Virus record (IMG/VR): IMGVR_UViG_3300034279_001372
Coordinates: 1-26,254 of that record
Source of the DNA: a virus
Length of the DNA stretch: 26,254 nt
Direction: 5' to 3' (one strand)
In this document: one piece after another, positions 4,831 to 25,277 of the stretch
Layout: every line of letters starts with the position of its first letter
How positions within the stretch are numbered: position 1 is the stretch's first letter
Position numbers and translations under genes: made by a program
Notes under the pieces: model-generated
The model's input: the letters and a program-made list of their open reading frames with translations, nothing else
Database searches by the model: none
Told to the model about the DNA's origin: nothing

Positions 4831-6255
4831 ATGTTTCTTAGTTATATTACCCTGGCAGTTGCACTGAGTCTGTCAGTTATTGCCGCCTACTACAGTATTG
4901 CAGGTCTTACTGCAATTTTTGCCGCGGCTGTGATTCCTATCATTGTGATGGGCGGCATTCTTGAGATTGGCAAAGTTGTGGTCACACTGTGGCTGCACGA
5001 GTACTGGAGTCGTTGCCGTTTGCTCATGAAACTGTATTTGGTTCCTGCTGTGGCTGTGCTGATGCTGATCACCAGCATGGGTATCTTTGGGTTTTTGTCA
5101 AAAGCACACAGTGATCAAAATCTAGTGTCAGGCGATGTACAGGCCAAAATTGCAGTGTACGACGAAAAAATCAAGACAGCAAAGGACAATATAGATGCAA
5201 ACCGTAAGGCACTTAAACAGATGGATGAGGCTGTGGACCAAGTCATGGGTCGAAGCCAAGACGAAAAAGGTGCTGACAAAGCAGTTGCACTACGACGAGC
5301 ACAACAAAAAGAACGTGCCCGCCTTCTCTCTGAGATCCAGGCCGAACAAAAAACAATTAGTGGTCTTAATGAAGAACGTGCGCCAATTGCAGCCGAAGTA
5401 CGCAAGGTTGAGGCTGAAGTAGGTCCCATCAAGTACATTGCTGCCATGGTGTATGACGAAAACACAGACACCAACTCCTTGGAAGCCGCAGTACGATGGG
5501 TTATCGTCATGTTGGTAATTGTGTTTGATCCCTTGGCCATCATGATGTTGCTGGCCGCTACCGAAAGTCTAAAGTGGGAACGTCAACGACTGTTTGACTT
5601 GTTGAAATTGCCTGCACCTGAACCTGAACCAGAGCCTATACCCGAACCCACACCAGAACCTGAAAAGAGTTTGTTAGAGAAACATCCTTACTTGACCGCA
5701 GGCTTTGCCCACTTCCGTAATCTTGTGCCCATGGTGTGGCGCCCAGCACCACAACCGGTATCTCAAGATCCCACACCGCCGGGCTGGATGTTTGAAACCG
5801 CTGTGTCTACGCCTGAAACTACAACAGAAGACACAGATGCAGTGGATGAACACAATCCCAAGTTTAAAGAGGCCATTAGACGATGGAAACAGGAACACCC
5901 TGGCAAAACCATAAAGAATCAACGCTATTTGTTACAGCGTGGCGACATTCAAGAACTGCCCTGGATCCAGTATCTACATGAAACCAAAAGCAGTTTTGGC
6001 ACAGATTTTCCTGCCCAGCCTGCCAAAGGCGACAGCTTTGTTAGAATAGATCGAGTGCCTAGCCAGTTGTTCAAATTCAATGGCAGTCGTTGGATAGAGG
6101 TTGACAAAAACACCACAGACAATTACACTTATGACATGGCCTATATTGACCATCTCATTCAATTGATTAGCCAGGGCAGCTACGATGCTGAACTGTTGAC
6201 TGATGCAGAACAACTACAAGTGGCCAACCGCTTGCAACAAAACTCAAACATATGA
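4831..6255 (+). CDS. Membrane protein with periplasmic or cytoplasmic coiled coil
   Basis: This 474-aa protein has hydrophobic segments at about residues 3-22, 24-54 and 68-90. A long charged coiled coil follows at about 100-200, then another membrane segment at about 221-243 (VRWVIVMLVIVFDPLAIMML). Next come an E-P repeat linker (residues 262-278) and a soluble C-terminal region of about 190 residues. It resembles hypothetical inner-membrane proteins of large aquatic phages, and I know no function. The start lacks a clear ribosome site and follows the previous stop by 3 bases, so coupling is likely. Its own stop shares an ATGA with clpX, which could indicate a membrane adaptor or anchor for ClpX, but that is inference. 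Confidence 0.85.
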   Translation: MFLSYITLAVALSLSVIAAYYSIAGLTAIFAAAVIPIIVMGGILEIGKVVVTLWLHEYWSRCRLLMKLYLVPAVAVLMLITSMGIFGFLSKAHSDQNLVSGDVQAKIAVYDEKIKTAKDNIDANRKALKQMDEAVDQVMGRSQDEKGADKAVALRRAQQKERARLLSEIQAEQKTISGLNEERAPIAAEVRKVEAEVGPIKYIAAMVYDENTDTNSLEAAVRWVIVMLVIVFDPLAIMMLLAATESLKWERQRLFDLLKLPAPEPEPEPIPEPTPEPEKSLLEKHPYLTAGFAHFRNLVPMVWRPAPQPVSQDPTPPGWMFETAVSTPETTTEDTDAVDEHNPKFKEAIRRWKQEHPGKTIKNQRYLLQRGDIQELPWIQYLHETKSSFGTDFPAQPAKGDSFVRIDRVPSQLFKFNGSRWIEVDKNTTDNYTYDMAYIDHLIQLISQGSYDAELLTDAEQLQVANRLQQNSNI

Positions 6256-7442
6256 AATCAAACGAATCTATCTACAATTGCAGTTTCTGCGGCAAACACA
6301 AAGATGTTGTAACCAAATTAATAGTAGGCGAAAATGTTGCTATTTGCAACGAGTGTGTGGATTTGTGCCAAAACTTGCTGATAGACACCCCAGCCGAAGT
6401 CAAGGCCGCTAGCACACCTAGCTTGGATCCACGCAAAATTCGTGAGCACCTGGATCAGTATGTGATTGGTCAAGACCAGGCCAAGATACTGCTGAGTGTG
6501 GCCATTGCCAATCATTACAAACGCATTGACAATCAAGACCCCGAACACGAAATTGAAAAAGCCAATATTCTCATGCTTGGTCCCACAGGCTCAGGAAAGA
6601 CCTTGTTGGCCCGTACCGTAGCACGTTATCTAGATGTGCCATTTGTAATCGCAGATGCTACCAGTTTAACCGAAGCAGGGTATGTAGGCGATGATGTAGA
6701 AAGTCTAATCGGTCGACTGTTTGCTGCCGCAGGTGGTGACATTGATAAAACACAACGTGGCATTGTGTTTGTGGACGAAATTGACAAGATTTCTCGCAAA
6801 AGCGAAAGCGCCAGTATCACTCGTGATGTCAGTGGCGAAGGTGTGCAACAGGCCTTGCTCAAGCTGGTAGAAGGTACCAAGTGCAGAATCACTCCTACTG
6901 GTGGGCGCAAGCATCCGTCAGGCGAAACGGTGGAAATTGATACCACCAACATCTTGTTTATTGCTGGTGGTGCATTTGTGGGCATGGAAAATATTGTAAA
7001 AAGTCGCGTAAAAGGCACCAGCATTGGATTTGGCGCTGATGTACGCACAAATGAAAAAACACAGTTGAGCCAAACCACCCCTGACGACCTGGTGCGCTTT
7101 GGATTAATTCCCGAGTTTGTGGGTCGGTTCCCAGCCTGGGTAGCACTACAAGAGCTGGACAAAGCAGACCTTGTGCGTATTCTACAAGAAGTCAAGCACA
7201 ACTATGTGAGTCAGTATCAATGGTTGTTCAAGCAGGATGATGTTGATCTAGAGTTTACAAAAGACAGCTTGGATCTTATTGCTGAACGCACCATCAAGAA
7301 CAAAACAGGTGCTCGTGGACTGCATTCTGAATTGGAACGTGTGTTGTTGCCACACATGTACAATCTAGCTCGCTATCGTTCAGATGGCATCAAGCATGTG
7401 GACATTGATCAGGCCTTGGTAAATAGTCCCAAGGAACTCTGA
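6252..7442 (+). CDS. clpX: ClpX, AAA+ unfoldase of the Clp protease
   Basis: ClpX unfolds tagged proteins and threads them into ClpP. The 396-aa protein is near the usual 420-aa length and has every key element. These are the N-terminal zinc-binding domain (C10, C13, C32, C35), Walker A GPTGSGKT (110-117), pore loop GYVGD (143-147), Walker B VFVDEID (172-178), RKH loop (219-221), an IGF loop (258-260) that docks ClpX on ClpP, an arginine-finger region GRFP (291-294), and sensor 2 GAR (353-355). The intact IGF loop argues for a working ClpXP partnership, either with the ClpP at 22942 or with host ClpP. It is coupled to the membrane protein upstream by ATGA, and bS21 follows 7 bases after its stop. 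Confidence 0.97.
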   Translation: MKSNESIYNCSFCGKHKDVVTKLIVGENVAICNECVDLCQNLLIDTPAEVKAASTPSLDPRKIREHLDQYVIGQDQAKILLSVAIANHYKRIDNQDPEHEIEKANILMLGPTGSGKTLLARTVARYLDVPFVIADATSLTEAGYVGDDVESLIGRLFAAAGGDIDKTQRGIVFVDEIDKISRKSESASITRDVSGEGVQQALLKLVEGTKCRITPTGGRKHPSGETVEIDTTNILFIAGGAFVGMENIVKSRVKGTSIGFGADVRTNEKTQLSQTTPDDLVRFGLIPEFVGRFPAWVALQELDKADLVRILQEVKHNYVSQYQWLFKQDDVDLEFTKDSLDLIAERTIKNKTGARGLHSELERVLLPHMYNLARYRSDGIKHVDIDQALVNSPKEL

Positions 7443-8497: not shown

Positions 8498-9187
8498 ATG
8501 GCTCAAATCGAACACAATCTTATTTCTGCAGATGAGATTGCATTATTCAAACAATACTACAACACATTCTCTACAGAAAAATATGTGAATGCTACCACCG
8601 ATGATCATCTCATGGTGAACCAAGGTCCCATAATTGATCATAGACTGTTGATTGAACCTTCAAAAAGTCAGCAGTGTTGGGATATTGTACAAAGAGTTAC
8701 CCATCATTTTTTGCCAGGATGTGAAAACATTTGGGCTAACTATCAGCGGCAAAGTCTGCCCCACAGCACACATGTGGACGACTACTGCAAACACTTTGAT
8801 GTTCCCACCTACACTGTTATTATTGCATTGGATACACATCCCGAATTCAATGTGATACTGTGCAAGGAAGAAGCCGACAGCAACGATCATCTAAGTCAAA
8901 TGCTGTACAACTGGGCCACACCTGCACCCAATCCAGCAACCAAGATCTGCAACATCAGCGAAACTGAAGATCTCGAACATTCAATTGACCCAGTTCATCA
9001 GCAATACTTTCTAGACTGGTTGACACCCGACGGTGTTTTCCGCTATACTGCTGGTAGTGGTGTATTCTTCTTGGCATCACAGATACATTGCTCGGGAAAC
9101 TGGCACAAGTACAACAAGTTTATCAACAAAGACCTAGTGCAAATTCATGCACACTACAACAAAGGAACAGGCAATGTCTCAATCTGA
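8498..9187 (+). CDS. Probable 2OG-Fe(II) oxygenase-like protein
   Basis: This 229-aa protein probably has a double-stranded beta-helix fold. The iron ligands would be HVD (residues 92-94) and a later histidine in SQIHCSGNWHK (H197 or H203), with K204 or K207 as candidates for binding 2-oxoglutarate. Small phage proteins of this type are usually predicted hydroxylases of protein, nucleotide or nucleic acid; no substrate can be read here. An AGGA site (8489-8492) precedes the ATG. Its last 14 bases overlap clpS. The assignment rests on motif spacing and overall look rather than a close match, so another DSBH or cupin protein is possible. Confidence 0.55.
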   Translation: MAQIEHNLISADEIALFKQYYNTFSTEKYVNATTDDHLMVNQGPIIDHRLLIEPSKSQQCWDIVQRVTHHFLPGCENIWANYQRQSLPHSTHVDDYCKHFDVPTYTVIIALDTHPEFNVILCKEEADSNDHLSQMLYNWATPAPNPATKICNISETEDLEHSIDPVHQQYFLDWLTPDGVFRYTAGSGVFFLASQIHCSGNWHKYNKFINKDLVQIHAHYNKGTGNVSI

Positions 9188-9485
9188 AACAAAAACACGT
9201 ATCAAACCTTCTGAGGCAGTGAAAGAACCTCCTATGTACAAAGTAATCTATCTCAACGACAATCAAACCACCATGGAGTTTGTTGTAGAAAGTTTGATGG
9301 AGTTTTTTGATTACAACGAAGAAACTGCGTTTACTATCACTGAAGACATTCACGAAGCAGGTTCAGCAGTGGTAGCAGTGTTGCCATTTGAAATTGCTGA
9401 ACAAAAAGGTATCGAAGTTACAATAAGTGCGCGAGCTCTAAGTTTTCCGTTGCAGATCAAACTTGAGCCTGATACTGTTCAATAA
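9174..9485 (+). CDS. clpS: ClpS, N-end rule adaptor
   Basis: ClpS binds proteins with destabilising N-terminal residues and normally hands them to ClpAP. The chosen ATG at 9174 has an AGGA site and gives 103 aa, like bacterial ClpS. The core MYKVIYLNDNQTTMEFVVE matches the family's MYKV.LvNDd.T.MEFV. Pocket residues are present: N28 and D29, M34 and H60 (E. coli N34, D35, M40, H66). The family's second aspartate is Asn here. The disordered N-terminus of about 20 residues, needed for delivery to ClpA, is retained. No ClpA is encoded in the window, so it either uses host ClpA, blocks it, or cooperates with another phage unfoldase. The stop overlaps the convergent gene by 7 bases. Confidence 0.93.
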   Translation: MSQSETKTRIKPSEAVKEPPMYKVIYLNDNQTTMEFVVESLMEFFDYNEETAFTITEDIHEAGSAVVAVLPFEIAEQKGIEVTISARALSFPLQIKLEPDTVQ

Positions 9486-11606: not shown

Positions 11607-11628
11607 CTATCTAAAGGAACACTCATAC

Positions 11629-12867
11629 ATGAAAAAAATTGGATTTATCGGAATCGGTAAACTTGGCCTTGACTGTGCTGAAGTTATGGCTGAAAAGCAC
11701 GAAGTTCGTGGTTACGACATTTACCCAAGAACCAGCGACACAGTAAAAGTCTGCGACATTGACGAACTTGTAAACAAAAGCGAATGGATCTTTATTGCTG
11801 TACCAACGCCACATGCTGAAGGATACGATGGTAGTGTGCCAAGCAGCCACATGACTCCCAAGGACTTTGGACATGACGCTGTGATTGATGCAATCAACAA
11901 GGTGAACCAACATGCCAAGACCAGCAAAAAGGTTGTGTTGATCTCTACTGTGCTTCCAGGCACAACACGTAGCAAATTTATTACATTGCTAGACCCCAAG
12001 CATCAGTTCTTGTACAATCCTTATCTGATTGCCATGGGTTCGGTTAAGTGGGACATGGCCAATCCAGAGATGGTTATTATTGGTACCGAAGACGGCGAGC
12101 TCACTGGTATTGCTGGTGAATTGATTGCCTTGTACAAAACCATCATGAACAACGACCCACGTTATGAAATTGGCACCTGGGACGAATGCGAAGCCATCAA
12201 GATCTTCTACAACACCTACATCTCGGCCAAGGTTGGCATCGTTAACATGATTCAAGACTTTGCCATGAAGATTGGCAACATCAACGTTGACGTTGTGACC
12301 AACGCTCTAGCACGAAGCACCATGCGACTACAAGGTCCCAAGTATATGACAGCAGGCATGGGTGATGCAGGTGCTTGCCATCCACGTGACAACATTGCGT
12401 TGCGTTGGTTGGCTGAACATTATGAAGTGGGCTATGACTTGTTTGATACAATCATGCATGCTCGTGAGATCCAGGCCAAGAACTTGGGCTTGTTCCTGGT
12501 TGAACAAGCACGAACAACAGGGTTGCCTATTGTGATCCATGGCAAAGCATACAAGCCTGACGTTGAATACTGCATTGGCAGCTACTCAACCTTGGTTGGT
12601 CACTATGTTAAAGAAGCAGGCATGCCAGTTGTGTATGTTGACCCACTGGCAGACAACATGGACGAAGTGGTCAAGGAAGTTGACGGTCCTGCTGTGTTCC
12701 TTTGGGCACACAATCGTAAAATTACTTACGAATATACTGGCGAACAAAAAGACACACAGGCCTACTGCGATATCAAGCCAGGATCAGTTATTGTTGATCC
12801 ATGGCGCAAACTAGCATCTACATCCGACTACCAAGTGGTCCACTATGGCAACACCCGCGGCGTTTAA
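11629..12867 (+). CDS. UDP-glucose/UDP-sugar 6-dehydrogenase family
   Basis: This enzyme family oxidises the C6 alcohol of a UDP- or GDP-sugar to a uronic acid using NAD+. The start at 11629 follows AAAGGA; a longer frame from 11578 would overlap the promoter. The 412 aa show a Rossmann GFIGIGKLG (5-13), the AVPTP motif (58-62), STVLPGTT (107-113), the central EAIKIFYNTYISAK with K191 and N195, and the catalytic cysteine C250 in GDAGACHPRDN, equivalent to GGSCFPKD. Substitution of the usual GGxC by AGAC and FPKD by HPRD marks a divergent subgroup, so the exact sugar is uncertain. It is the first gene of a unit with an oxygenase and an amidinotransferase. Confidence 0.85.
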   Translation: MKKIGFIGIGKLGLDCAEVMAEKHEVRGYDIYPRTSDTVKVCDIDELVNKSEWIFIAVPTPHAEGYDGSVPSSHMTPKDFGHDAVIDAINKVNQHAKTSKKVVLISTVLPGTTRSKFITLLDPKHQFLYNPYLIAMGSVKWDMANPEMVIIGTEDGELTGIAGELIALYKTIMNNDPRYEIGTWDECEAIKIFYNTYISAKVGIVNMIQDFAMKIGNINVDVVTNALARSTMRLQGPKYMTAGMGDAGACHPRDNIALRWLAEHYEVGYDLFDTIMHAREIQAKNLGLFLVEQARTTGLPIVIHGKAYKPDVEYCIGSYSTLVGHYVKEAGMPVVYVDPLADNMDEVVKEVDGPAVFLWAHNRKITYEYTGEQKDTQAYCDIKPGSVIVDPWRKLASTSDYQVVHYGNTRGV

Positions 12868-13363
12868 GTATCGCATTGATCAGTTCTGGGATGATGAGTT
12901 CAAAACGCTGGACTATATCCAAGAACCTTTCAACGATCCTGCCAGTGTAGCCTTATGGCTGTCACAAGGCTACACAAACAAGATTTGTGGTGACCTGTGT
13001 GACATGCGGCATACTCTGCCGTCTTGGACCAATCAATTTATCAAAATATACACTGAACTGGGATGGAAGGACATTGGTATTGCTTTTTATCGCATGCCCA
13101 CAGGCACAGTGATGCCGGTGCATAGTGATCTTTACAAACGCTATATTGAACTATTTGATTTGCAAGGACGCGAACACACTATCAAACGTGCGCTGTTGCT
13201 GTTGGAAGACTGGAAGTCAGGACACTATCTTGAAGTTGATAACCATGCCTATACCAACTGGCGTGCCGGCGATGTAGTAGAGTGGGTGTACAGCACTCCG
13301 CACATGGCAGCAAATCTTGGTCTTGAAGACCGCTACTCATTGCAAATTACAGGACACTTATGA
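12845..13363 (+). CDS. 2OG-Fe(II) oxygenase / aspartyl-hydroxylase-like protein
   Basis: This 172-aa protein has a double-stranded beta-helix pattern. It has a metal site HSD (93-95) preceded by FYRMPTGTVMPV, a central LLLLEDWKSGHYLEVDN, and a distal H153 in STPHMAANLG with R163 in RYSLQITG, the usual position of the 2-oxoglutarate-binding arginine. This resembles phage proteins related to aspartyl/asparaginyl beta-hydroxylases. The substrate is unknown. It overlaps the dehydrogenase by 23 bases and the amidinotransferase start by 4 (ATGA), so all three are probably co-translated and may work in one pathway. The ribosome site is poor. Confidence 0.72.
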   Translation: MATPAAFKYRIDQFWDDEFKTLDYIQEPFNDPASVALWLSQGYTNKICGDLCDMRHTLPSWTNQFIKIYTELGWKDIGIAFYRMPTGTVMPVHSDLYKRYIELFDLQGREHTIKRALLLLEDWKSGHYLEVDNHAYTNWRAGDVVEWVYSTPHMAANLGLEDRYSLQITGHL

Positions 13364-14277
13364 TATCCAGCTACGACGAATACAGTACACTGAAAAAGAT
13401 TGTGGTAGGTGATGCTTCCTATGCTAACTGGCCTGTGCATGATCCTGTGTTTAGAGCCGAAGCAGAACACACACTGTGGAAAGAAACGCCCTTGCCGTCG
13501 GGTCCTGTGCCACAGCACATTATTGATGAAGCCAACCAGGACCTGCAGGGCTTGTGTGATATCCTAACTGATCACGGAGTTGAAGTGGTGCGGCCTGCCA
13601 CCATGAACTTTCAAACACGCGATGGCATGTACAACTACTGCCCTCGTGATCGATTCATTGTGCATGGCAGTACTGTGATTGATCCTGCCATGATGTATCC
13701 CTGTAGAGACATGGAGTATCAGTGCTATGTTGACATATTGAAATCAGCTGATCGTGTGATACACATGCCACGAGCTGCTGGAATGGTGCTGGATGCAGCC
13801 AATGTGCTGCGAGTGTCCCAGAACCAATGGTTGTTTTTGGAATCAGCGTCGGGCAATCGTGCTGCCTATGAATGGCTGTGCGCTCAAGTGCCTGAAGTCA
13901 AAATTGAACTGTGTAACTTTTATGCCGGAGTGCATATTGATTCAACCATCGTGGCCCTGAATGCCACTACCTTTGTGGTTAATGGCAGCAGAGTCAACTC
14001 GACCACATTGCCCCGAATGTTGCAGGACAAACTCATATTGTATGTGAATGAGGTAGTACCACAGGATTTTTACCAGTATCCTTATGCATCAAAATGGATT
14101 GGTCTCAACATGCTCAGTATTGATCCCCACACAGTAATTGTAGACTCTGACCAAACTGACCTAATTCGCACCTTGGAAAGCCGACTGGGCATGACTGTGA
14201 TTCCGCATCGCCTGCGACACAGTCGTACCCTGGGTGGCGGATTTCACTGCACAACACTGGATTTGGTACGTGGTTGA
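13360..14277 (+). CDS. Amidinotransferase (glycine/inosamine amidinotransferase family)
   Basis: Members of this family move an amidino group from arginine to an amine, making a guanidino product and ornithine, through a cysteine intermediate. The 305-aa protein retains catalytic candidates: D97 in CPRDR, D145 in LDAANVLR, H192 in GVHIDST, and the nucleophile C297 in LGGGFHCTTLDLVR. It is shorter than human AGAT but has the full five-bladed pentein core. It starts in an ATGA overlap with the oxygenase. The -35 box of the next promoter overlaps its stop codon. The acceptor could be an amino sugar, an amino acid, an aminated nucleobase or a polyamine; the sequence does not say. Confidence 0.88.
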   Translation: MISSYDEYSTLKKIVVGDASYANWPVHDPVFRAEAEHTLWKETPLPSGPVPQHIIDEANQDLQGLCDILTDHGVEVVRPATMNFQTRDGMYNYCPRDRFIVHGSTVIDPAMMYPCRDMEYQCYVDILKSADRVIHMPRAAGMVLDAANVLRVSQNQWLFLESASGNRAAYEWLCAQVPEVKIELCNFYAGVHIDSTIVALNATTFVVNGSRVNSTTLPRMLQDKLILYVNEVVPQDFYQYPYASKWIGLNMLSIDPHTVIVDSDQTDLIRTLESRLGMTVIPHRLRHSRTLGGGFHCTTLDLVRG

Positions 14278-14302
14278 CCAATATTCAGCTTTGTTGTATA
14301 AT
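14274..14302 (+). promoter_or_regulatory. Sigma70-type promoter P4, likely leaderless
   Basis: TTGACC (14274-14279) overlaps the upstream stop codon, then a 17-base spacer and TATAAT (14297-14302). Seven bases later is the ATG at 14309, so the transcript would begin at or next to the start codon. There is no ribosome site. Confidence 0.85.
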
Positions 14303-14308
14303 ACAAGC

Positions 14309-15337
14309 ATGAATACACATCCTCGAATTGGCTTTTGTTGCAAGTGGCTTAATGACCCTACTGAATGTGGTGGCATGAAAGTCAATGCAGTGGACCGTGA
14401 CCTAAACGGCAGATCAACTACCATGAGGTGGCTTCGCGAACATGCATCCGAAGCAGACCAGCGACAATGGGATATCATGAATCACAATGCCTCGGCGGCT
14501 GTGAAAATGATTGAACGTGTGGCCACACTGCCCGCAGAACGCAGAATGGTACGATTGGGCAGTGAAATGCTACAGGGCTACACTGAGCCTTCGTGGATTG
14601 ACTGGTGGCAACGTCAAGAAATTCAGGATCATTGTGCAAAAATCTTTGCCCCTGTTGGCGAAGCCGCACGTAGATACAATGTGCGTTTGAGCTTTCATCC
14701 TGGACAATTTTGCGTACTAGCAAGTGAAGCAGATGAAATCGTAGAACGTTCAATCCTGGAATTTGAATATCACGCTGATATGGCACGTTGGATGGGCTAT
14801 GGTAATACCTGGCACGACAACGGCTTTAAGATCAATGTACACTTGAGCGGTAAAGGTGGTGCCGCAAAATTCTTGCGTACTTTGGGTAGACTCAGTCCCG
14901 AAGCAAGAAACTTAATTACCATCGAGAATGATGAGATGACAAATGGACTTGACACTACTTTGGCTGTGGCTCAGCATGTGGCTCTTGTATTGGACCTACA
15001 CCACCACTGGATTAACTCGGGAGAGTACATCTCCGCGCAGGACGATCGTGTCAAGCGGGTTATTGACTCTTGGCGCGGCACTCGTCCTGCACTTCATTAT
15101 AGTGTTAGTCGCGAGGACCTTTTGGTTGACCATGACCGAGGAACTAGACCCGATCTTGCTGAACTTCTTGCTAGAGGTTATAAGAAACAGAAACTACGGG
15201 CACACAGCGACTTTTACTGGAACACTGCTGTAACGGATTGGGCACTGACTTTTGCTGACAGCTTTGATATTCAGTGCGAAGCCAAAGGCAAGAACCTAGC
15301 TAGTGAACAAGTTTATAAAAGACACATAAATGTATAA
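14309..15337 (+). CDS. uvsE: UV-damage endonuclease, UvsE/UVDE family
   Basis: The enzyme nicks DNA 5' of UV photoproducts and begins alternative excision repair. The 342-aa TIM-barrel protein starts RIGFCCKWLNDPTE. It contains the metal-binding elements LSFHPGQFCVL, INVHLSGKGG, TIENDEMT, LDLHHHWIN and LHYSVSR, in family order, and the late AHSDFYW. The length is typical (about 300-400). The start at 14309 is chosen because the -10 box of P4 ends at 14302; the longer frame from 14234 would include the promoter. The mRNA is apparently leaderless. It overlaps the next amidinotransferase by 8 bases. Repair of sunlight damage fits a virus of lit surface water. Confidence 0.95.
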   Translation: MNTHPRIGFCCKWLNDPTECGGMKVNAVDRDLNGRSTTMRWLREHASEADQRQWDIMNHNASAAVKMIERVATLPAERRMVRLGSEMLQGYTEPSWIDWWQRQEIQDHCAKIFAPVGEAARRYNVRLSFHPGQFCVLASEADEIVERSILEFEYHADMARWMGYGNTWHDNGFKINVHLSGKGGAAKFLRTLGRLSPEARNLITIENDEMTNGLDTTLAVAQHVALVLDLHHHWINSGEYISAQDDRVKRVIDSWRGTRPALHYSVSREDLLVDHDRGTRPDLAELLARGYKKQKLRAHSDFYWNTAVTDWALTFADSFDIQCEAKGKNLASEQVYKRHINV

Positions 15338-16463
15338 TGTATATCAACACTGGGATCCGTTAAAGGTTTGTGTAGTTGGACGCAGTTATCCCCCTGACTA
15401 TTATTGTTGGATGACTGATGCCCGTGTAAGATCCTTGTTTGAAAAAATTGCATTAGAAACCGAAGAAGATTATCAATATCTAATTAAAAAACTTCAAGAA
15501 TTTGGAGTACAAGTATTGCGACCCGAGTTACCTGCGTTTGAGGATATTAAGATAGGAGGAAAATATTTGCCGCCTCCGATGACTCCAAGAGATTACATGA
15601 TAATGATTGGGGAAGTTTTTTATAAAGGTTATCAACTCGACATTGAAAAATTTTACAAAGCGGTTAAGGATCCTTCATGGCCTGACTGTACTAGTGTTGA
15701 GGAATTTAGTACTCTACCACAACATATACAAGACGAGTGCAATGACCTTCATAATCTAAAAAAACTGCAAAAATTTTATTCAAGTTATGATAAAATATAT
15801 GATCAAATTCAACAAGCGGGTAACCAAGTAGTAAAGAATGTTATTAGTCAAGCACCAGGTGCTTTTATAACCAGAGTGGGTAAAGATTTATACTTTGGTA
15901 CAGAGACCTACAGTCAGAATCATATACAATACAAACAACAAATTGATTCAGTGTTTACTGAGACTAGAAATCATATTGTCAACACAGGAGGACACAGTGA
16001 CGCAACTTTTTGTCCTGTGTGCCCTGGTTTGATTATAAGTCTTAAAGACGTGCCAACTTATGCAGATACTTTTCCAGGTTGGGAAGTAGTCTACTTACCA
16101 AATCAAAGTTGGTCAAAGATTAAACCTTTTGTTCAATTAAAACAAAAAAACAATGGTAAATGGTGGATACCAGGTTTTGAAAACGATCAGTCGGTGATTG
16201 ATACAGTTGAACAATGGCTGGGCCATTGGACAGGGTATGTGGAAGAAACTGTGTTTGATGTCAACATGTTGATCATCGATCCCAAAAATGTCATGGTGTT
16301 TAACTACAACAAACAAGTGTTTGATGCACTAGACCGTTATGGTATTACGCCACATGTTGTACCGTTTAGACATAGATATTTTTGGGACGGTGGTATACAT
16401 TGTATAACCAGTGATATACACCGAGAAGGTATATTGCAAGATTATTTTCCCAACAGAACATGA
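15330..16463 (+). CDS. Second amidinotransferase-family protein, AT-rich and with a large insertion
   Basis: This 377-aa pentein-fold protein shares the start (PLKVCVVG) and end (FRHRYFWDGGIHCITSDIHR, nucleophile C358) with the amidinotransferase at 13360. It also has a PRD-type D88 and a catalytic-type histidine H222 in GGHSDATF. It is about 70 residues longer, with an extra helical segment near 95-165. The codons from about 15400 to 16180 are clearly more AT-rich than in neighbouring genes; from about 16190 to the end they look like the rest of the phage. This suggests acquisition or replacement by recombination. It overlaps uvsE by 8 bases. The acceptor is unknown, and it probably does not duplicate the first enzyme's reaction. 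Confidence 0.85.
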   Translation: MYNVYQHWDPLKVCVVGRSYPPDYYCWMTDARVRSLFEKIALETEEDYQYLIKKLQEFGVQVLRPELPAFEDIKIGGKYLPPPMTPRDYMIMIGEVFYKGYQLDIEKFYKAVKDPSWPDCTSVEEFSTLPQHIQDECNDLHNLKKLQKFYSSYDKIYDQIQQAGNQVVKNVISQAPGAFITRVGKDLYFGTETYSQNHIQYKQQIDSVFTETRNHIVNTGGHSDATFCPVCPGLIISLKDVPTYADTFPGWEVVYLPNQSWSKIKPFVQLKQKNNGKWWIPGFENDQSVIDTVEQWLGHWTGYVEETVFDVNMLIIDPKNVMVFNYNKQVFDALDRYGITPHVVPFRHRYFWDGGIHCITSDIHREGILQDYFPNRT

Positions 16464-19859: not shown

Positions 19860-20438
19860 ATGAACATGCCATTAGACACAACTCAATCAGACCAAAATCA
19901 TTCACAAGCACTTGCCGATAACGGTATGTATGTTTTTATGGGCGAAGTAGACCATGAAAGTATAAAGCCCATAATTGAATGGATTTTGCACGAAAACTTT
20001 GTGGCAAAGAAAAAGCGCAAAGAACTTTTGCTAATGATCTGTAGTGAAGGCGGAGACATGAGCGCGGCATTTGCACTGATTGATGTGATGCGTAGTTCCA
20101 ACATCTTTATAAAGACTGTGGGACTGGGTCAGATTGCCAGTGCCGGATTGTTGATCTTTTTGGCAGGATCTCCGGGACGCAGAACGCTAACACCCAACAC
20201 TTCAATCATGAGTCACCAGTATGCCTGGGGCAGTGATGGAAAACATCACGAACTGTTGGCCACAATTAAAGAGTTTGAACTCACACAACGCCGCATGGTC
20301 AATCACTACACGACTTGTACAGGGCTAAGTGAAGATGAAATCAAGCAACACCTGTTGCCACCGCATGATGTTTATCTAGGTGCGGATGATGCCTTGCGTT
20401 TGGGCATCTGTGATCACATCAGCCAATTGTCCCGCTAG
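19860..20438 (+). CDS. Divergent ClpP-type serine protease (second ClpP)
   Basis: This 192-aa member of the ClpP/crotonase fold keeps the catalytic triad: S94 in GQIASAG, H119 in SIMSHQYAWG, and D170 in PPHDVYLGADDALRLG. INSPGG is replaced by ICSEGG. It diverges strongly from the canonical ClpP at 22942 and resembles the ClpP-like proteins of large phages. It could be a self-assembling protease or a second subunit of a mixed ClpP ring. There is no ribosome site; the ATG lies in the T run of the terminator. A later Met at residue 23 is a possible alternative start but would trim into the fold's first strand. No transcription start is certain. Confidence 0.85.
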   Translation: MNMPLDTTQSDQNHSQALADNGMYVFMGEVDHESIKPIIEWILHENFVAKKKRKELLLMICSEGGDMSAAFALIDVMRSSNIFIKTVGLGQIASAGLLIFLAGSPGRRTLTPNTSIMSHQYAWGSDGKHHELLATIKEFELTQRRMVNHYTTCTGLSEDEIKQHLLPPHDVYLGADDALRLGICDHISQLSR

Positions 20439-21278: not shown

Positions 21279-22880
21279 TTAGATCTTTGCTCTTCGTCCC
21301 AGTACTTCGGGACTCATGTTGGGTTGTGCCCCAGACTTGGCGGTTCGTGCGCCGGGTCCTTTGAGTCTTGGCGTTTGTGTTACTGCATCAAGATCAGCTG
21401 TTTCTTTGTCGCTGTCAAAGTTGTTTTTGCCAACCGACGCTTTTTTAGAGCTGCCAACTTCGATGTTGGCTTTTTCTTTGCCCGGGCTAATCTCCACGCT
21501 GAGTTTGCCTTTCTTGGGATCAGAAGCTGACCCTTTGGTCTTGAGCTTGACCTCGCCCTTGAGTTTGGCTGGCCAAAATGCTTCAGTCACTAGCTTGCCG
21601 CCTTTGACGTTGGTGTATAATTGCACAAAGTTGTAGCCCAGACTTTCAATCAAGGCCTCACGCAAATTGGGCACAGCAGAACCCTTGTTCACAGCGTTGA
21701 TAATATCGGTGGTCACAGCATACCAGGCCTTGCCACCGTCACTGTTGTCTGACTTTTCAACTTTGTCAGTGAGACGTTTGTTGAATACCGACATGATGTT
21801 TTTGGGCACGGGCTTGTTTGATTTTACTGTGGTCTCTAGTTGAGCAATCAGTTCGTCACTGAATGGCAACAGCGGTGAATATTGAACTGGCACGTTATTG
21901 GGATTGATTTCGTACATGGCATTCAGCATCTTGAACGGCTGTGCAAATGTGCTTATACCTGTGTCCTGTGCAGTGTCCAGGAACTCAGCAGCTTCGGGAT
22001 ACTTGTCGCGGAGGTCATTGGGTAGTTTGAGCGATGTCAAACTGGGTGGTGCACCTTTGCCTGCAGCCTTGCTGGAAATCTTGATACTGTGACCAGTTTG
22101 GTCGTTGGTAACACTAAAGCTGTCGGCCAGGGGATTGCTGACGTTCTTGGGAAAATATATGATCATGGATCCAAGATCAGTGCCAATGAAGTTGTCAAAG
22201 TCTTGTCGGTTGCCTTGTTTGAACGGCACGATTCCAGCCACTAGGCCCAGCACTCCTAAATATTCGGAAGCATATAATTCTATGGCTTTGATTTCTTGTG
22301 CAGATAATCCTGCTGGTATAGTAGGAACCACACCTTGAGTAATCTGTTTGGCCATTGCTACCACAGCTTGGCCCACTTTGCCCAATGTTTTTATTTGCGG
22401 GCTTTTGGCAATGGCATCATACATGTCCATGGCCGGAAATCCTCCAGCCGCCATGATGGACTCAATGCTGTTGCCCATGTCTTTGACATCAGTGTCTTCA
22501 GACCCAAAAACATCCGAACCTTTGATTTTGATTCCTTCTGCTTCTTTACTGCCAAATTCTACTGTTTTTAATAATTCATTATTTTTTATAGTGTCCCCAT
22601 CGGTGGTGGTCAGTACAATAGGTTTTGTCATGCCTTGCGATAACCAGCTTCTGACATTGGGTGCTTCAGCGGGGTTAATGGTCACTTCACCACCGCCTGC
22701 TTTTTCAAGTGCAGTAAACGGGCTTGAGTTGATGACTTTCCAGAGAAACAGCTCTTGTCTGGTCATCAATTGCCCTGTTGTGGGATTTTTGACTGCGGAC
22801 ATCTTTTTTGCAGGTATTTCGGCAGCGGCCAAAGCAGCTTCAGTTAGTACGTTATCGATTAAATTGAGTAGGTCTCTCAT
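21279..22880 (-). CDS. Large probable virion or internal head protein
   Basis: This 533-aa protein starts MRDLLNLIDNVLTEAALAA. The hydrophobic helix ending LTE-A resembles the capsid-targeting leader and L-x-E cleavage site of T4 internal proteins. The rest is mixed alpha/beta without known enzyme motifs, with a Lys/Ser-rich low-complexity tail (about 445-533). I do not recognise a named family. It is the first gene of the leftward operon and shares a 61-base divergent promoter region with clpP. An internal or structural virion role fits the leader and size but is an inference. The apparent forward ORFs across 21183-22902 are its shadows. Confidence 0.75.
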   Translation of the reverse strand: MRDLLNLIDNVLTEAALAAAEIPAKKMSAVKNPTTGQLMTRQELFLWKVINSSPFTALEKAGGGEVTINPAEAPNVRSWLSQGMTKPIVLTTTDGDTIKNNELLKTVEFGSKEAEGIKIKGSDVFGSEDTDVKDMGNSIESIMAAGGFPAMDMYDAIAKSPQIKTLGKVGQAVVAMAKQITQGVVPTIPAGLSAQEIKAIELYASEYLGVLGLVAGIVPFKQGNRQDFDNFIGTDLGSMIIYFPKNVSNPLADSFSVTNDQTGHSIKISSKAAGKGAPPSLTSLKLPNDLRDKYPEAAEFLDTAQDTGISTFAQPFKMLNAMYEINPNNVPVQYSPLLPFSDELIAQLETTVKSNKPVPKNIMSVFNKRLTDKVEKSDNSDGGKAWYAVTTDIINAVNKGSAVPNLREALIESLGYNFVQLYTNVKGGKLVTEAFWPAKLKGEVKLKTKGSASDPKKGKLSVEISPGKEKANIEVGSSKKASVGKNNFDSDKETADLDAVTQTPRLKGPGARTAKSGAQPNMSPEVLGRRAKI

Positions 22881-22941: not shown

Positions 22942-23565
22942 ATGCCCAGTTTGATCCCCATGGTTGTTGAACAAACCTCAAAAGGCGAACGCAGTTATGA
23001 CATCTACAGTCGCTTGCTCAAAGACCGTATCATCATGTTGGACACAGATGTCAACGAACACAGTGCCAGCTTGATTGTGAGTCAAATGCTGTACCTCGAA
23101 AGTGAAGACTCTGACAAGGATATTTCGCTATATATAAACAGTCCAGGCGGACTTGTTACTGCCGGGCTTGCAATCTACGATACCATGCAGTTTATCAAAC
23201 CCGATGTTCATACCATTGTTATTGGCCAAGCTGCCAGCATGGGCAGTTTTTTGGCACAGGCAGGCGCACCTGGCAAACGTTTTGTGTTGCCCGAAAGCCG
23301 TACCATGATTCACCGCGTTAGTTCAGGTACCCCCAGCACACGTGGATCAATCCATGTGCAAGAACTTGAGTTTGAAGATGCTCGTAGAACCTTTGAAGAA
23401 AGCAAGCGTATCAATCAGCGTCTTACTGAGCTGTATGTCAAGCACAACACCACAGGCAAGACCTATGACGAACTGTTTGAAGCCATGAAGTTTGACACGT
23501 TCCTTAGTGCTGAACAAGCAGTGGCGTTTGGCCTAGCAGATAAAGTTGTGGAGAAACGTGTCTAA
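22942..23565 (+). CDS. clpP: ClpP, ATP-dependent protease proteolytic subunit
   Basis: Canonical ClpP of 207 aa. It forms the two-ring tetradecamer that degrades proteins fed by ClpX or ClpA. The catalytic triad is S99 in GQAASMGS, H124 in MIHRVSSG, and D185 in [12 protein letters not shown]. The Ile-Asn-Ser-Pro-Gly-Gly motif is intact (65-70), as are the YDTMQF and the handle helix. An N-terminal propeptide-like [26 protein letters not shown] matches the bacterial form. AGGAG precedes the ATG. It overlaps the radical SAM gene by 8 bases. It should pair with the phage ClpX at 6252, which keeps the IGF docking loop. Confidence 0.97.
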
Positions 23566-24847
23566 CGCCGGCGTATTCTGCAATACACCGTGGTACGAGC
23601 TGCACATCTATTGGGATGGCAGCTTGGGCATCTGCTGCCAAGAAGCTCACAAACTGTACACAGATCACAGCTACAACATTGCCACCATGACCATTGCAGA
23701 ATGGTTTAATTCAGAACCAGTGCGTGATTTTAGACAACGTATACTGAAAGATTCCAGACTGAGTGAATGTCGTCGTTGCTATACTGAAGAAGATTCTGGA
23801 GGCAACAGCCGTCGACACAAATCCAATCAAAAGAGTGTGATTTTTAATCAGGCGTTCAAATACAGTTTTGAACAAAGTCCGAGTCGCGAGCACTTTGATG
23901 AGTCGGGATTTACTTCTACACAACCTATAGACATACACATTGACCTTGGAAACTACTGCAACTTGGCCTGTAAAATGTGTAATGCGCAGGCCTCAAGCCG
24001 TATTGCTGTACAAGAAGTCAAATGGGGCATGCAATCTAGCCAACAGTTTGTGAGATCAGATTGGACACTTGATACTACAGTGTGGAACAATTTCAAACAA
24101 CAATTGTTAGCTATACCCGGCCTTAACAACATTCATTTCATGGGCGGTGAAACACTGCTGACTGATCGATTTGAAGATATTGTGGATACCTTGATCGCAC
24201 ATCAGAGATTCGAAACGTGTTTTAGTTTTGTAACCAACGGTACTGTGTTCCGTTCCGAGTTATTGGCCAAACTATCTAAATTTCGTCGTGTGGGCATAGA
24301 AGTCAGCATAGAGACTGTGGATGATCACAACACATATCAACGGCAAGGCACTGATACTGCACAAGTTTTGCGCAACATTGATCATTATTTGGAGGTATGT
24401 AATGGCACCAATATCACAGTGTCGTTGCGCCCAGCCATCAGTGCATTGACCATTGGCTACTATGCTGGTCTGCTGAAGTATGCTTTGCAGAATAAATTGA
24501 CAGTGAAAGGGCTACAAGTCAACACCCCACGATTTTTAGATGCAACGGTATTGCCTCAGGAAGTGAAACAGCAGTACATAGTACAATATCACAACATATT
24601 GCAGGATCTTGATTCAGTTAACATGGTCCTGGATTACAATGCCAGTGACCCCAACAATTATCAGTTGGTTGTCAAGCAACAAGCACAAATGTGTATAAAC
24701 ATGTTATCACAGCCAGCACCACATGATGTGGAGCAACTGCGTGACCAACTTGTGAAACATTGCAAAAAGTGGGACAAGATTTATCACCTTGATGCCAGAC
24801 AGTTGTATCCTGAGCTGACCGCGGTATGGGATCAGTATGGTTACTGA
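23558..24847 (+). CDS. Radical SAM protein with N-terminal SPASM/twitch-like cysteines
   Basis: The chosen GTG at 23558 has GGAG 4 bases upstream and gives 429 aa; a TTG at 23546 is less likely. The radical SAM cluster CX3CX2C is [10 protein letters not shown] (C134, C138, C141), and the FMGGETLL segment fits the SAM-binding GGE motif. An upstream set of cysteines (C8, C26/C27, C71, C74) resembles an auxiliary cluster domain of twitch/SPASM type, here placed before the core. Such proteins modify peptides, tRNA or sugars; the substrate is unknown. It overlaps clpP by 8 bases and the next gene by 11. The phage must rely on host iron-sulfur and reductant supply. Confidence 0.88.
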
Positions 24848-25277
24848 GTATCTAGTACAGGCAGCAGTGACGCTGATCCCAAAAATTGGAGTTACTGCCC
24901 CCGAAGTACGTATATCAGTGCCAGGATATTCTGTCACACATGTACTACAGCAAACTGAAAAAATACAGCTGGAATTTGTTGCAGACTCGGGATGGTTGGA
25001 AATTGAGTTTTACAACAAACCTGACCTAGATCATAGCATGGCTGTGATAGTGGACAGTATTGAATTTTTTGGAATATCAGATCCCAAATTTGTATGGCAT
25101 GGTGTGTATAGCCCTAAGTATCCCGAACCATGGCACAGTCAGCAACAACCACTACCAGCAGCGGCACTACCTGCTTGTAATTACATGGGATGGAACGGTT
25201 CTTGGCGTCTGAATTTTGATGTTCCTGTATTTAGATGGATGCATCGCATACAGGATTTGGGCTGGATTTATCAATGA
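24837..25277 (+). CDS. Beta-sandwich protein, possible carbohydrate-binding type
   Basis: This 146-aa protein overlaps the radical SAM gene by 11 bases. Its pattern (LDHSMAVIVDSIEFFGISDP, YSPKYPEPW, NYMGWNGSWRLNFDVPVFRWMH, LGWIYQ) is rich in strands and aromatics. I associate it with xylan-binding-type calcium-dependent carbohydrate-binding modules seen in phage and bacterial hypotheticals. The role could be recognition of a sugar on the virion or host. The ending overlaps the minus-strand 31-aa gene by 7 bases. The CBM link is tentative; the co-translation with the radical SAM protein suggests a related job or complex. Confidence 0.7.
   Translation: MVTEYLVQAAVTLIPKIGVTAPEVRISVPGYSVTHVLQQTEKIQLEFVADSGWLEIEFYNKPDLDHSMAVIVDSIEFFGISDPKFVWHGVYSPKYPEPWHSQQQPLPAAALPACNYMGWNGSWRLNFDVPVFRWMHRIQDLGWIYQ

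Follow-up and report, generated by a model that had tools for sequence, protein, structure and literature searches.

A radical SAM enzyme and an adjoining CBM60-like protein as a candidate two-protein modification unit in phages

In a stretch of DNA of 26,254 nucleotides from a large uncultured phage (IMG/VR record IMGVR_UViG_3300034279_001372, positions 1 to 26,254; hereafter the window), a radical SAM enzyme and a small beta-sandwich protein are co-encoded in overlapping frames, and across relatives the two co-diverge and stay together when the gene upstream of them changes. We hypothesize that the two proteins work together as a modification unit, the beta protein serving the enzyme as client or docking partner, a reading to which we assign a probability of about 0.4. 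We favour it over, in descending order, a glycan-presenting role for the beta protein, chance adjacency and a maturation pathway coupled to ClpP. The features concerned are as follows:

22942-23565, + strand: clpP, proteolytic subunit of the ATP-dependent Clp protease and first gene of the trio (NF001368, 254.7 bits, cut-off 249; PF00574, 216.8 bits)
23558-24847, + strand: N_Twi_rSAM radical SAM enzyme, 429 residues (NF033640, 246.1 bits, cut-off 170, residues 7-423)
23579-23782, + strand: twitch/SPASM N-terminal region of the enzyme with C8, C26, C27, C71 and C74 (PF13186, residues 8-75, E 3.7e-8)
23957-23980, + strand: radical SAM motif CxxxCxxC (C134, C138, C141), conserved without exception in the 17 aligned sequences, within the Radical_SAM core (PF04055, residues 130-282)
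24837-25277, + strand: beta-sandwich protein, 146 residues, with a predicted CBM60-like fold and no accepted family (AlphaFold2, VIA-align, position after the enzyme gene)
25236-25274, + strand: C-terminal tail of the beta protein, WMHRIQDLGWIYQ, residues 134-146 (loose pattern in 64 of 64 enzyme-linked copies)

The original prediction had the three genes overlapping by 8 bases (clpP and the enzyme gene) and 11 bases (the enzyme gene and the beta gene). The ORF coordinates confirm both figures, and since relatives whose enzyme is as little as about 50% identical show these overlaps too, they appear to be more than chance. An alternative start for the enzyme exists (TTG at 23546); the GTG at 23558 is the better fit, being preceded by GGAG at 23550 and marking the point at which the alignment of the relatives begins. 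In the relatives the beta start codons were set by a rule near the stop of the enzyme gene, so the exact overlap of these two genes is uncertain in some of them. In a simple scan the + strand showed no terminator-like site, and the enzyme gene contained two promoter-like sites, fewer than shuffled sequences did. The enzyme and the beta protein may be translated from the clpP message.

The gene order behind this arrangement is strongly conserved. From the matches listed we took 71 distinct enzyme sequences scoring above 250 bits and merged them at 90% identity into 66 groups; the scans that fed this pool covered the best 80 of 138 relatives for the enzyme alignment and the best 80 of 100 in another. 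The beta gene lies directly downstream of the enzyme gene in 64 of the 66, which sustains the suggestion that this neighbour is a partner of the enzyme. Because part of the pool was collected through the beta protein itself, we also quote the scans made with the enzyme only. With the single enzyme protein, IMG/VR yielded 26 loci, 24 of them with the beta gene behind the enzyme gene and two (L010 and L027) running into a contig end. With the enzyme alignment, the beta gene was present in 75 of the best 80 of 138 loci. The five remaining loci comprise L146 and L027, which are cut by contig ends, L205, whose sequence ends 117 bases past a partial beta match, and L208 and L210, in which the enzyme is present and no beta gene was found. 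A search of the rest of the 127-kb record of L210 likewise found none. The enzyme can thus do without the beta protein at least in these two; they are sisters in the tree and group with the beta-bearing L141, so a single loss would explain both. In L208 and L210 the enzyme gene adjoins a second radical SAM gene; in L210 what looks like a GIY-YIG endonuclease gene comes after the enzyme gene.

Pairwise distances were compared across the 37 loci in which all three genes are present. Those of the enzyme and the beta protein correlate with r = 0.64, a value to which the common history of neighbouring genes contributes and which so speaks for joint inheritance, not for contact; the corresponding values are 0.19 for the enzyme and ClpP and 0.28 for the beta protein and ClpP. 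The enzyme and the beta protein co-diverge, and ClpP does not. It is the pair, by its gene order, rather than the clpP gene ahead of it, that evolution appears to have kept together.

Its profile match assigns the enzyme to the known family N_Twi_rSAM: the match is near full length (profile positions 4-397 of 398), and all 17 aligned sequences of the enzyme match NF033640 as well. The five cysteines ahead of the core are, like those of the motif, invariant in all 17. The original prediction had noted that the extra cysteines precede the core instead of following it, and the SPASM match does lie before the core domain. This layout is real; it is not a peculiarity of the enzyme in the window, since the enzyme and all its aligned relatives match NF033640, which makes the reversed domain order a family trait. 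With that family the enzyme shares the N-terminal cysteine domain and the radical SAM core; within it, the enzyme represents one clade, marked by a dedicated downstream partner, and the library entry gives no reaction. A viperin-like defence enzyme (pVip) was rejected as a candidate, its match being confined to the core at 42.4 bits, against the full-length match to N_Twi_rSAM.

In the structure model the putative N-terminal cluster region is uneven, with block pLDDT values of 43-92 for residues 1-60 and 45-68 for residues 61-110. The nearest solved folds include 6efn (E 4e-5), 5wgg and 5v1q. SkfB, the sactipeptide enzyme 5wgg and SuiB, all SPASM/twitch peptide modifiers, are among these nearest folds, with TM-scores of just 0.3-0.4. 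Such peptide-modifying enzymes carry their extra cluster domain C-terminal to the core, unlike the N_Twi_rSAM enzyme described here, and their partner is a short peptide, whereas here, in a survey of the longer ORFs, the adjoining gene encodes a domain of 146 residues that is predicted to be folded.

The beta protein is modelled by AlphaFold2, from 17 sequences, as a mostly beta domain with a pLDDT of 93.1, in keeping with the earlier beta-sandwich reading. When the model was compared by VIA-align, vCBM60, a calcium-dependent carbohydrate-binding module, headed the list (2xhh, Z 10.9, rmsd 3.2 over 112 residues), followed by 2xfd (Z 10.6, rmsd 2.8 over 104 residues), with the next row at Z 6.0. 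The likeness to 2xhh and 2xfd extends over the whole domain. A predicted fold of this carbohydrate-binding type would suit the glycan-binding neighbour that had been envisaged among other roles. Sequence criteria do not place the protein in the family: the Pfam CBM60 model was listed for none of the 17 aligned members, and its one sub-threshold match, of 18.2 bits against a cut-off of 28.2, lies at G015:67181-67384, which by coordinates is the beta gene of locus L134. Given vCBM60 first by VIA-align and Pfam CBM60 below its cut-off, we describe the predicted fold as CBM60-like, without assigning the protein to the family. The beta protein further differs from CBM60 in its extra C-terminal tail and in being encoded by a stand-alone gene rather than as a module of a hydrolase.

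For the beta protein, Foldseek returned no solved relative in the PDB below E 0.001 and, in BFVD, just three proteins below that value, from uncultured phages. No acceptable family emerged from Pfam, PHROGs or solved structures, a search in named phages gave no match, and among bacteria and archaea, taken as one genome per species, 16 pattern matches were obtained and none was confirmed.

The C-terminal tail is, in our view, the best functional clue. It reads W-x-H and, a short distance further on, G-W-[IL]-Y or something close to it. All 64 enzyme-linked copies show the loose pattern, and 59 of the 64 show the strict form within the last eight residues, with deviations in L028, L182, L096, L124 and L133. 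The end of the tail is weakly ordered in the AlphaFold2 model (pLDDT 60 for residues 141-146). Distant beta copies, represented by nine rows from the same genomes as the linked copies, some of them near-duplicates, align in all nine cases only to position 136-137 of the 147-position model, just short of the tail, and the six that we read out all end before it (L065, at G007:C1:22962-23402, L068, L069, L070, L259 and L260). Around seven such loci we saw groups of small genes or an amidinotransferase-like gene, and no radical SAM gene; one tail-less copy stands directly behind an amidinotransferase-like gene, whereas a small conserved set that includes a protein of 54-55 residues holds others. 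A tail that is conserved, loosely ordered and linked to the enzyme would suit a docking element or the modified site; an aromatic tail could instead serve dimerisation or folding. Because of its G-W-[IL]-Y ending we considered, and did not keep, a modification of the C-terminal tyrosine as in mycofactocin; in most beta copies one residue follows the tail tyrosine.

The genomes of the relatives hold many further enzymes of this family, with up to 14 N_Twi_rSAM matches per record in G002 (316 kb) and G023 (289 kb), of which 12 and 13 are over the cut-off. Five to seven diverged genes form tandem or near-tandem arrays in the giant relatives (G001:C1:23032-30646, G002:C1:251508-263234, G015:C1:250962-258428, G018:C1:154645-163574, G023:C1:95463-104595 and others), and the genes among which these arrays lie look, by eye, as if they encoded sugar epimerases, kinases and a carbamoyltransferase. 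The ORFs of 14 stretches around other N_Twi_rSAM genes contained no match to the beta model, so the beta partner seems to belong to one clade of the enzyme. In a tree of the enzymes, a supported branch (99/97) sets all 66 groups apart from 13 paralogues; this tree of 66 and 13 enzymes carries a long-branch warning. Twelve records each gave one strong beta match.

A second set of genes in the window bears on the context of the pair:

11623-12867, + strand: nucleotide-sugar (UDP-glucose type) dehydrogenase, which starts the operon holding the pair in other relatives (phrog_9148, E 3.2e-85; PF03721, 54.6 bits)
12845-13363, + strand: aspartyl/asparaginyl-hydroxylase-like protein, same operon (PF05118, sub-threshold, E 0.0011; gene order)
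13360-14277, + strand: amidinotransferase/arginine-deiminase-like protein, same operon (phrog_25854, a family of unknown function, E 6.7e-19)
14234-15337, + strand: UvdE-like endonuclease (PF03851, 109 bits, cut-off 24; gene order)
15330-16463, + strand: second amidinotransferase/arginine-deiminase-like protein (PF02274, sub-threshold, E 0.0082; phrog_25854, E 7e-11)

On these sequence matches the dehydrogenase and UvdE names are firm. The two related amidinotransferase-like genes flank the UvdE-like gene; the name of the first is presumptive, being taken in part from the weak arginine-deiminase match of the second. In 13 of the 66 groups an amidinotransferase-like gene stands within four genes of the pair. 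Nine of these show the full operon order (L094, L209, L189, L132, L126, L130, L127, L135 and L122), namely sugar dehydrogenase, hydroxylase-like, amidinotransferase-like, a 245-residue protein, a 415-residue protein, the enzyme and the beta protein; L123, L206 and L186 show part of it. In several relatives the gene immediately behind the beta gene is the UvdE-like one. In the window, the counterpart of this operon lies 7-12 kb upstream of the pair, and the pair does not stand between its dehydrogenase, hydroxylase-like, amidinotransferase-like and UvdE genes (11623-15337). L186, which has the partial operon order, falls inside the ClpP clade in the tree, so a change of gene context by the pair is probable. 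The 415-residue protein has homologues in 10 of the 21 records searched; its sole match in PHROGs is to a family without assigned function (E 0.008), and by eye it reads like a tail-fibre type.

An amidinotransferase-like gene was present in 19 of the 22 records that carry the enzyme clade of the window. Its distance from the enzyme gene has a median of 13.7 kb and does not exceed 33.3 kb, and the two share a strand in 16 of the 19. Such closeness would arise by chance with a median P of 0.12 per record, the records being related. We treat the operon link as a lead that is mildly unlikely by chance and, since the records are related, partly inherited synteny.

From these observations, we propose that the beta protein would bind the enzyme through its tail, W-x-H-...-L-G-W-[IL]-Y, and that the enzyme would perform radical chemistry on its partner, the aromatic tail or the face it carries being the likeliest target. 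The matured protein might in turn bind or act on a glycan, conceivably as one step of a phage tailoring pathway that includes the sugar dehydrogenase, the hydroxylase-like and the amidinotransferase-like proteins. This two-protein unit draws its support from the conserved gene order, the correlated distances, the tail that all linked copies and none of the distant ones carry, the paralogue stretches free of a beta match, the single strong beta match per record and the supported branch; the two relatives without a beta gene, the other roles open to the tail and the partly inherited synteny of the operon count against it. In its most specific form, in which the enzyme modifies a folded lectin-like protein at its aromatic tail and so yields a chemically altered glycan-binding protein, an activity undescribed for phages in the searches made, the proposal is unlikely to be correct as it stands.

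The closest rival leaves the beta protein unmodified and makes it a glycan-recognition subunit, which would bring a carbohydrate, or a virion protein that bears a glycan, to the enzyme for alteration of the sugar. We consider it somewhat unlikely. The CBM60-like predicted fold, the sub-threshold CBM60 match of the L134 gene, the sugar dehydrogenase in the shared operon and the sugar-like genes seen by eye around other N_Twi_rSAM genes of the relatives all agree with it; the lack of any Pfam CBM60 listing among the 17 members and of any solved relative by Foldseek argues against it, as does the position of the enzyme-linked tail outside the part that aligns to the vCBM60-like copies.

That two genes of unrelated function are merely hitch-hiking, their overlap making them hard to separate, we regard as improbable. 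In compact phage genomes genes that overlap do not easily come apart, and two relatives have the enzyme without a beta gene; the pair nevertheless occurs as a unit in several contexts. The clpP gene overlaps too, yet it is exchanged or missing in relatives.

ClpP stands directly upstream of the pair and on the same strand in 35 of the 66 groups and not directly upstream in 31; in L100 and L117 it lies behind the pair on the opposite strand. The proteins at this position are of more than one type, scoring 50-444 bits against the ClpP of the window. We therefore discarded ClpP as a constant partner, given this count and its weak distance correlations with both members of the pair; it is a frequent neighbour in one clade and no required component. 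Coupling to a protease had been offered as a hint of peptide maturation, and a pathway in which ClpP would trim the product after its modification, in the manner of the dedicated proteases of certain radical SAM peptide systems, would accord with the clpP overlap in the window and with the 35 upstream occurrences, but the 31 exceptions, the mixed types of ClpP and its failure to co-diverge with the pair make it highly improbable, and it is not supported as a general rule.

The window also contains a second, diverged clpP-like gene (19860-20438, + strand; PF00574, 99.5 bits), as do many relatives, and ORFs at 6252-7442 and 9147-9485 (+ strand) read by eye like ClpX and ClpS; the phage may encode a whole Clp system. 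A gene for 533 residues (21279-22880, - strand), which gave no family match, begins MRDLLNLIDNVLTEA, a start that looks like a capsid-targeting leader of the T4 type, including its LxE/A cleavage site. Its widely diverged relatives sit between two clpP-like genes in many loci.

Radical SAM genes are abundant in several described phages. In the portions of the reports available, the Campylobacter phages CP220 and CPt10 have 11 and 12 radical SAM proteins and exchangeable clusters that include a putative glycine amidinotransferase (PMC2853527), a marine T4-like genome has 12 radical SAM genes (PMC5332604), and pelagimyophages carry radical SAM cassettes (PMC7029224). CP220 and CPt10 thus resemble the present genomes in their many radical SAM genes and putative amidinotransferase gene (PMC2853527); unlike the window, CP220 has no gene at the N_Twi_rSAM cut-off. 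KVP40 has N_Twi_rSAM-like matches, all below the cut-off. Searches run with no positive control found no beta homologue in CP220 or KVP40, and one paralogue locus, compared at the DNA level with named phages, gave no match. No title or abstract opening in the literature searched names a radical SAM enzyme paired with a CBM60-like protein, and as far as these searches show the pair is undescribed.

If the lectin-like reading is true, it would concern one enzyme-partner pair among the dozen diverged radical SAM enzymes of the same genomes. Large phages with at least ten radical SAM genes, to which the available portions of the reports give no substrate, have been recorded (PMC2853527, PMC5332604), and the clade described here supplies a concrete candidate partner: a soluble domain of 146 residues that keeps its place beside a single enzyme and whose tail distinguishes the linked copies. 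Should the proposed working of the pair prove right, the question of the substrate would reduce to two small proteins.
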